Of a stretch of DNA of 64,000 bases, positions 1,362 through 1,985 are shown in pieces. Source of the stretch: Eretmocerus hayati (Eukaryota > Arthropoda > Insecta > Hymenoptera > Aphelinidae); the NCBI GenBank assembly GCA_029851415.1, contig CM056742.1, positions 148,061,121-148,125,120 of the forward strand, read 5' to 3'. Both the position numbers and the translations under genes were made by a program. Each line of letters opens with the position of its first letter. Positions within the stretch are counted from its first letter, which is position 1. Under the pieces are notes generated by a model. It was given only the letters and a program-made list of their open reading frames with translations. It had not been told where the DNA came from and did not search any database.

Positions 1362-1583
1362 GGTCTCGTCCATCACCGAACGCGCGTTCGGACAAAAGTT
1401 CGCTCGGAGCGCTCGGAACGCTCCGTCCAAGATTTTCAGCCGAGGAGAGGGGAGGAATCGTCCACAGCATTAGAAACAGGCTGTCTCCCCTCTCCCCGGC
1501 TAGAAATCTTAGACGGAGCGTTCGGAGCGCTCCGAGCGAACTTTGTCCGAACGAGCGTTCGGTGATGGACGAGACCGTGTGGG
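1362..1583. repeat. GC-rich internal inverted repeat of the ribozyme element
   Basis: Arms 1362-1465 and 1480-1583 are complementary with few mismatches (shared blocks such as GAACGC, GTTCGGACAAA and TTCGCTCGGAGCGCTC). As RNA this would form a roughly 100 bp hairpin immediately 5' of the hammerhead region. ORFs read through it on both strands are mirror artefacts. Confidence 0.85.
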
Positions 1584-1697
1584 GTACATAATACCTCACA
1601 TGCGCAATAGATGGATGACAGATCCAGCTCCTTTCCCGCAATCGACGGCTCAAGACCTCGATTAGTATATAAGAGCGCATAAGTGCTTCATCGCCAA

Positions 1698-1780
1698 GCG
1701 TCCAGGGCACCACCTGCAACTCCAGCCCTGCTGATGAGTCCGGTTACGATGAACCAGGTTGCAGGTGGGGGACGAAACGC
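1698..1780 (+). ncRNA. Hammerhead self-cleaving ribozyme (stem III open)
   Basis: All invariant parts occur in order. Stem III 5' strand GCG plus U and the cleavage-site C are at 1698-1702, giving a GUC triplet with predicted cleavage after C1702. Stem I is CAGGGC (1703-1708) pairing with GCCCTG (1725-1730). The conserved CTGATGA is at 1731-1737. Stem II is GTCC (1738-1741) pairing with GGAC (1770-1773). GAAA is at 1774-1777, and CGC (1778-1780) closes stem III. Every helix is fully complementary. Loop I (1709-1724) and the stem II insert share an 11-nt complementarity (1710-1720 with 1758-1768), which could be a tertiary contact or an alternative fold. Within stem II, GGTT and AACC (1742-1755) form a small hairpin. 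The order of strands makes this type III topology. Activity is inferred, not shown. Confidence 0.85.
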
Positions 1781-1985
1781 ACAAGAGCCTTCTGCTCGAG
1801 CGTAGTAGAATCATTCATTAGTAGTGGATAAGCCATCAGCCTATTCCTACAACCGGACCAATCCGAGCGCTCCGACCCGCATAATCGAATAAACCTGATA
1901 TGAACGATCGGAACTTTATCGCTCGTGGGAATTTCAAATCATATTATTACATGACTTGGCTAATGCGAACTAATTTTATGTTACT

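Follow-up and report, generated by a model that had tools for sequence, protein, structure and literature searches.

A type III hammerhead ribozyme in the LTRs of a probable retrozyme of the wasp Eretmocerus hayati

A 274-bp sequence in the genome of the parasitoid wasp Eretmocerus hayati (Chalcidoidea, Aphelinidae) is very probably the solo LTR of an animal LTR retrozyme, an element with a type III hammerhead ribozyme in each LTR that would cycle through RNA circles. It was met in a window of 64,000 nucleotides (positions 148,061,121 to 148,125,120 of the forward strand of contig CM056742.1, assembly GCA_029851415.1), and all positions below count from the first letter of that window. Copies elsewhere in the genome have the anatomy of an LTR element, have moved recently, and share a ribozyme that is conserved and covaries between families. 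The unusual point is an LTR retrozyme in an insect, not, as the original prediction proposed, a ribozyme-bearing element with terminal inverted repeats (TIRs). That prediction correctly saw a mobile, non-autonomous carrier, but took for it the TIR element, here called a MITE, when the carrier is the LTR retrozyme inserted into it. The features are these:

1317-1319 and 1897-1899, no strand: GAT/GAT flanks of the MITE, from the sequence
1320-1896, no strand: foldback MITE that received the insertion, about 300 bp when the insertion is left out (inverted repeats; genome copies; uninterrupted copies L070-L073)
1320-1364 and 1852-1896, no strand: TIRs of the MITE, 45 nt, 93% identity (inverted-repeat search)
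1361-1577, no strand: inner inverted arms of the MITE (inverted repeats)
1574-1577, + strand: left target-site duplication ACCG of the LTR insertion (sequence; single copy in L070-L073)
1578-1851, + strand: solo LTR of the probable retrozyme, family A, 274 bp, TG..CA (the same as the direct repeats of complete elements elsewhere)
1666-1673, + strand: TATA box TATATAAG, 32 bases upstream of the ribozyme, start to start
1698-1780, + strand: type III hammerhead ribozyme, predicted cleavage between 1702 and 1703
1710-1720, + strand: 5' strand of the pseudoknot, loop I / stem II, CCACCTGCAAC (11 of 11 pairs kept in the four variants compared)
1758-1768, + strand: 3' strand of the pseudoknot, GTTGCAGGTGG, in the 3' bulge of stem II (variant comparison)
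1852-1855, + strand: right target-site duplication ACCG (sequence; single copy in L070-L073)

A genome search with the 575-bp inverted-repeat unit gave 496 candidate places, 40 of which were scored, with 77 matches in those 40. The unit proved to be two separate repeats in the genome: the LTR (query 258-531, corresponding to window 1578-1851) and the remainder, which is the MITE. At the scored places, the 274-bp LTR recurs mostly at 95-100% identity (one divergent family at 85%), and is often repeated directly two or three times at intervals of about 600 bp. For family A, the regions of the 39 other scored places were fetched and considered together with the window, and full-length LTR matches defined 41 insertion groups. 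A perfect 4-bp target duplication encloses 31 of them, while the remaining 10 include cases where the second LTR matched in part only. The layout is LTR, internal region, LTR, non-coding, with a hammerhead in both direct LTRs. Twenty internal regions were found, 321-361 bp in length. All of them begin with the sequence [TA]TGGT(G/A)AC directly after the LTR, like a primer binding site (PBS), and all finish with a G-rich tract, GGGGGGAGTGGC or a near match, like a polypurine tract (PPT). The exact 18-nt primer site, TGGTGACCCCGACGTGAT, presumably the complement of the 3' end of tRNA-Trp, is present in 7 of the 20, the variant TGGTAACCCGCG(A/T)CG in 11, and another variant in 2 (both from L033). 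It is possible that the divergent sites serve another tRNA or that they have decayed. The site thus resembles the tRNA-Trp complement, some copies being divergent, and its letters look unlike those for tRNA-Met, the primer described for plant retrozymes. Counted as LTR plus internal region, the unit has a length of about 0.6 kb (A), 0.48 kb (B), or 0.52 kb (C; for families B and C see below), and a whole retrozyme measures about 0.75-0.9 kb.

By a looser grouping rule, the insertions sort into 21 singles, 19 pairs (of which one is family B), and 2 triples. Five of the 19 pairs have identical LTRs and are therefore recent insertions. The triple L033 lies between intact GCGT duplications and fits either rolling reverse transcription or unequal exchange. 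The internal regions of L033 and L068 are strongly unlike the others of family A, with LTRs more than 95% identical to that of the window, as if internal parts had been exchanged. Frames for Copia-type gag and Pol_BBD (Pfam) were seen near a single family A LTR copy, at L058:3072-4300. As for the coding content of the window itself, 10 of its 170 open reading frames were scanned, and no Pfam family rose above the cut-off.

How might such an element multiply? RNA polymerase II would start at the TATA box of the LTR, near the first base of the ribozyme, if the spacing between the two is a guide. The ribozymes of the 5' and 3' LTRs would both cut after GUC, releasing an RNA of about 0.5-0.6 kb, the length of one LTR plus the internal region. 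A host RNA ligase could join its ends into a circle, and the joining would reconstitute the LTR across the junction. Reverse transcription on the circle would then be primed by a tRNA at the primer site and, with a whole LTR spanning the joint, would not need the usual first strand jump. Reverse transcription may go round the circle more than once, an idea that the two tandem triplets fit without proving it. Reverse transcriptase and integrase would be supplied in trans by an autonomous LTR element, probably Gypsy, and integration would produce the 4-bp duplication, which is itself observed. In the window, the element would have entered the MITE, and recombination between its LTRs presumably left only one of them later on. 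A scan of 39 loci for the exact primer site away from the usual LTR end brought no autonomous partner to light: the two sites flagged both lie at an LTR end with one changed base. The E. hayati genome paper describes a recent burst of Gypsy insertions, and its available text has no instance of the word "ribozyme" (PMC13116730).

Alternatively, the element may be an ordinary TRIM that transposes by a linear route, its hammerhead serving some purpose other than circularization, perhaps the trimming of a capped 5' end or the setting of the 3' end of the RNA. The primer site, polypurine tract, and 4-bp duplication are those of a normal LTR element. Furthermore, the TATA box lies 36-37 bases before the cut and the usual distance from TATA box to start is about 30, so transcription would begin only a few nucleotides before the cut, and 5' trimming is conceivable. 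However, cuts in both LTRs would destroy a normal genomic RNA with its terminal R repeats, so a linear route would have to avoid cleavage, and plant LTR retrozymes of like layout are described as making circular RNA (PMC4918200). The TRIM explanation is on balance unlikely, and a cycle through RNA circles is preferred. TRIMs are known from Hymenoptera: PbTRIM of ants (PMC3532108) and Helenus of chalcid wasps (PMC10886601) are likewise described as short non-coding LTR elements, mostly below 1 kb, with PBS and PPT, and PbTRIM also as having solo LTRs and 4-bp duplications. They differ in that PbTRIM has a tRNA-Leu primer and Helenus has tRNA-derived sequence in its LTRs, and the accessible portions of the two papers report no hammerhead in either. 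ARAGORN found no tRNA in the window, nor did Rfam at gathering scores, though a partial tRNA-like stretch could escape both.

The hammerhead can be read directly from the + strand, and every element listed by the original prediction is present: stem III (GCGU/ACGC), the cleavage triplet GUC (1700-1702), stem I (CAGGGC/GCCCUG), stem II (GUCC/GGAC, continued by GGUU/AACC), and the core segments CUGAUGA (1731-1737) and GAAA (1774-1777), all in the correct order. The core CUGAUGA/GAAA/UH and three helices with stem III open are those of a type III hammerhead, in support of the topology that had been claimed for it in an animal genome. A strict descriptor of the motif matches one site in the whole window, 1698-1780, and nothing in 300 random windows of the same dinucleotide make-up (Markov-1; 19.2 Mb, both strands), so chance occurrence is indeed unlikely. 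A covariance match above threshold, on which the original prediction had staked itself, was not obtained: Rfam Hammerhead_3 (RF00008) aligns at 1698-1780 with 25.2 bits (E=0.0012, 151 nt searched), below its gathering score of 48.5. The alignment spans model positions 4 to 51 of 54 with long loops, two of which contain 16 and 27 unshown nucleotides against 1 and 7 model positions, and the low score is due in part to the cost of such loops. At gathering scores, no Rfam family was reached in the whole window, and an E-value search of 901 nt returned no hammerhead among the 21 matches listed. Antisense matches to the Hammerhead model, at about 15-20 bits, mirror the self-complementary stems of the ribozyme and do not represent a second one. 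We hold that the genome-wide evidence outweighs the low score, and the ribozyme is predicted from its sequence to cleave itself. The core pattern extended by GC also matches 99 stretches in viral contigs, only a sign that the extended wording fits real hammerheads; phages are reported to carry them (PMC7229834).

Searching the genome with the exact core/stem II pattern gave 208 places, as against none for the reversed pattern. The 100 of these that were listed comprise 85 that are A- or B-like, 10 of type C, 4 of type D, and 1 of type E. Family B was found by a search with the divergent LTR (373 candidates, 40 scored, and 20 regions fetched, L181-L200). Its LTRs end in CTACA, its unit is about 479 bp, a hammerhead lies in both LTRs, and six pairs have a primer site and polypurine tract like those of A, the 18-nt site being exact in two of the six. 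A duplication with at most one mismatch is found at 12 of the 20 loci (9 exact), 3 are without one, and 5 have no recognisable LTR end. The LTRs of L196 and L197 look like mosaics of families A and B, which suggests template switching or gene conversion.

One element of family C, L210, was read whole. It has 250-bp LTRs with a hammerhead in both, a 267-bp internal part, the target duplication TTTG/TTTG, the exact primer site, and a G-rich GGGGGGGAGTCT before the 3' LTR. By blastn, its LTR matches that of A only over the ribozyme and 17 nt beyond (LTR 121-220, E=8.6e-28), and the other matches, of 13-15 nt, are at chance level. This element, its LTR otherwise unrelated to that of A, has kept the ribozyme, the TATA spacing, the primer site, and the length of the duplication. 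The spacing from TATATAAG to the ribozyme, start to start, is 32, 32, and 31 bases in A, B, and C. Of types D and E, only some 100 nt apiece are known. The type D hammerhead of L205 (C2:44888666-44888766; others at L204, L206, and L207) has stem I CGGAAG/CTTCCG, a loop I of 27 nt, and a loop II of 14 nt, with GTCTAC/GTAGAC complementary between the loops. In the other three, the 5' side looks decayed.

The original prediction overlooked that loop I (1710-1720) is perfectly complementary over 11 nt to 1758-1768, a segment contained in the 14 nt of the 3' side of stem II. Covariation was judged from an alignment of A, B, C, and E, one sequence each (four distinct sequences), D being too different to align. 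Across the four variants, 98.2% of 113 cells are paired, and five pairs have changed on both sides: four of the eleven in the pseudoknot and one in stem III. None of 500 shuffles reaches either figure, nor the covariation score of the alignment. One further pseudoknot pair has gone from G-C to G-U. The number of further pair types (6) is no greater than in shuffles, 343 of 500 reaching 6. With partners slid by 1-3 columns, only 36-50% remain paired, a comparison that favours the real structure insofar as the structure was drawn from the window sequence, one of the four. In its upper part, stem II is conserved in kind although poorly aligned, and two of the pairs there have a non-standard cell. 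A covarying pseudoknot could serve as a search model for hammerheads that Rfam ranks below threshold.

Families A and B were also compared copy by copy (63 of A and 25 of B, leaving aside the mosaics L196 and L197 and copies of the A set shorter than 262 nt). Fixed differences occupy 3 of 83 ribozyme positions, 19 of 120 positions on the 5' side of the ribozyme, and 21 of 59 on its 3' side, the last being partly an alignment shift. The ribozyme thus differs less than the 5' part (p=0.006) and less than all the remaining positions compared (40 of 179; p=5e-5), and the three differences that it does show concern two bulge bases, both unpaired, and the pair that became G-U. Among the 64 copies of the A set, a shared second base occurs at 1 of 83 ribozyme sites, an unpaired loop base, and at 14 of 191 sites outside (p=0.044). 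Private mutations per site, on the other hand, number 0.0106 in the core, 0.0123 in the stems, 0.0129 in the pseudoknot, and 0.0144 outside, close to neutral everywhere, as expected because copies drift once inserted. The original prediction had named random substitution of the core in other copies as evidence against itself, and on this the result is split: single copies change in a near-neutral fashion, but where families differ, the changes mostly lie outside the ribozyme or are compensated within it. Of 68 ribozyme copies (two from family B), 56 have an intact core, 58 have all stem pairs, 57 have all pseudoknot pairs, and 47 are intact in all three respects, according to a test at fixed offsets that counts shifted copies as broken.

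Could the motif be a dead relic or a chance resemblance? The Rfam score below gathering would be in keeping with this, as would a private mutation rate in the core nearly that of the rest of the LTR. But a strict descriptor without a match in 19.2 Mb, a genome pattern seen 208 times against none reversed, two-sided changes that keep the pairing of stem III and pseudoknot between families, and identical LTRs in several pairs make such a history highly improbable.

How the ribozyme folds can be considered through calculated energies. The nested fold of minimum energy in the region (-33.6) differs from the hammerhead, and so does the best nested fold in which loop I stays unpaired (-20.8). By itself, the hammerhead comes to -16.5 and the pseudoknot helix to -22.5; in such a calculation, the two together would compare well with the nested folds only if their energies simply add, and an 11-bp helix formed from a 16-nt loop may be strained. 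Perhaps the 11-nt complementarity acts as a tertiary clamp, as the covariation suggests. Or perhaps it acts as a switch, allowing a change to the nested fold, whose stability exceeds that of the hammerhead by itself. The predicted fold of the circle is weakly more stable than those of shuffled sequences (z=-1.83, 1 of 20 shuffles at least as good).

The MITE that received the LTR is itself repeated. Its left part gave 187 candidates in the genome, of which 40 were scored, and the four copies that were fetched (L070-L073) are all uninterrupted at the point where the window carries 274 bp and a duplicated ACCG. They match the flanks of the window, joined across the 274 bp and one ACCG, at 91-95% identity with no break at the joint. 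The window thus contains a solo LTR, with duplication ACCG, inside a MITE. MITE sequence accompanies the LTR at 3 of the 40 scored places: the window, L031 (a complete retrozyme in a different MITE copy, at a site shifted by one base, with CCGG duplicated), and L057 (a triple at another site of a MITE copy, without clear duplication), the last two being insertions separate from that of the window. The TIRs of the original prediction are real, but the ribozyme is not common to the copies of the TIR element, none of the four having it at this site. The window copy does lie between 45-bp TIRs, but the uninterrupted copies, the separate insertions, and the rarity of MITE sequence beside the LTR refute the TIR element as primary carrier of the ribozyme and leave a non-autonomous DNA transposon that spreads the hammerhead by cut-and-paste the least probable explanation of all. 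MicroRNA-like Rfam matches on 1394-1545 and 1969-2043 are below gathering and are explained by hairpin DNA, such as the foldback arms. The strong inverted repeat at 1969-2043, which adjoins the MITE and has only those sub-threshold matches in Rfam, is probably another small foldback element.

The wasp LTR retrozyme can be compared with known systems, by description and not by sequence. Plant LTR retrozymes are described as similarly non-coding, with a type III hammerhead per LTR, 4-bp duplications, PBS, PPT, solo LTRs, multimers, and hundreds of base pairs between ribozymes (PMC4918200, PMC12029980, PMC11722881). Their definition also includes end boxes common to Ty3-gypsy. The wasp element differs in its animal host, in the length of its LTRs (250-274 bp, against a reported 300-400), and in its loop contacts, an 11-bp Watson-Crick pseudoknot, whereas those of plant type III hammerheads are said to be non-Watson-Crick (PMC7936874). 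Animal non-LTR retrozymes share with it a hammerhead, a non-coding mobile element, an animal host, and tandem units, but PMC7229834 describes them as carrying type I hammerheads, making RNAs of about 170-400 nt, and lacking LTR, PBS, and PPT. The wasp element differs in all of these, being of type III with LTR, PBS, and PPT. The division into plant elements (LTR, type III) and animal elements (non-LTR, type I) is repeated in PMC12029980 (2025) and in PMC11722881 (a 2024 review), and the genome-wide set from the wasp crosses this line as drawn in those sources up to 2025.

Pseudoknotted type III hammerheads have been described in insects (Drosophila pseudoobscura and the genomes of termites and dipterans) and in HDV-like RNAs (PMC7936874), and these share with the wasp ribozyme the type, the loop-loop pseudoknot and, where genomic, an insect genome. 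They differ in that, in the HDV-like RNAs, loop II pairs with a 4-nt motif located within an internal loop of a long helix I, and in that the genomic motifs of termites are isolated; the accessible part of the same paper states that no similar motif was found in hymenopterans. Work in preparation on elements with type III hammerheads in "bacteria or insects" is announced in PMC7761336, and related cases may thus already be known to other groups. Among the open-access papers listed, judged by titles and the beginnings of abstracts and with preprints outside this scope, none names an animal LTR retrozyme. Whether LTR retrozymes arose by convergence, common descent, or transfer becomes testable with the wasp set, which also offers an experimentally accessible insect for asking whether RNA circles made by ribozymes template LTR retrotransposition.

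A more general proposal, advanced tentatively and with more doubt than belief, is that animals possess their own class of LTR retrozymes, independent of those of plants. According to this model, a selected, pseudoknotted type III hammerhead would sit at the transcription start of several otherwise unrelated LTRs, and the circles, primed by tRNA-Trp, would enter Gypsy-type machinery to give a sometimes multimeric cDNA inserted next to RTGGCG (CTCF-like) sites.

Plant contamination was ruled out as a source of the elements, since each of the four large contigs carries LTR copies. A pygopus frame lies at L055, a locus with LTR copies, and has 100% identity over 98% of the query to E. hayati QAD02_020548, and the best solved relative of this frame is "PROTEIN PYGOPUS" (3zpv).

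Some observations concern the insertion sites. In the flanks of 31 family A insertions (L031-L069 and the window), TGGCG oriented toward the insertion was counted 15 times at distances of 8-30 bases from the duplication, against 0.74 expected from far flanks, a post hoc count that is inflated by targets in shared repeats (L066/L184 and L032/L069). Eight of the 15 lie at -17/-16 and five at -10. Three were seen at 12 insertions among L181-L200, with 0.21 expected. Several of the sites read AGRTGGCGC, a CTCF core. L066 (family A) and L184 (family B) are inserted at the same target sequence, with duplication GTCC in both, within copies of what is apparently another repeat; this target is possibly an insertion hot spot. 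Finally, contigs C1 and C4 (L074 and L077) start with a telomere-like CCCATAA / TTATGGG array. The chalcid telomere repeat given in PMC8977481 is TTATTGGG, and the TTATGGG of the contig starts is one base shorter.
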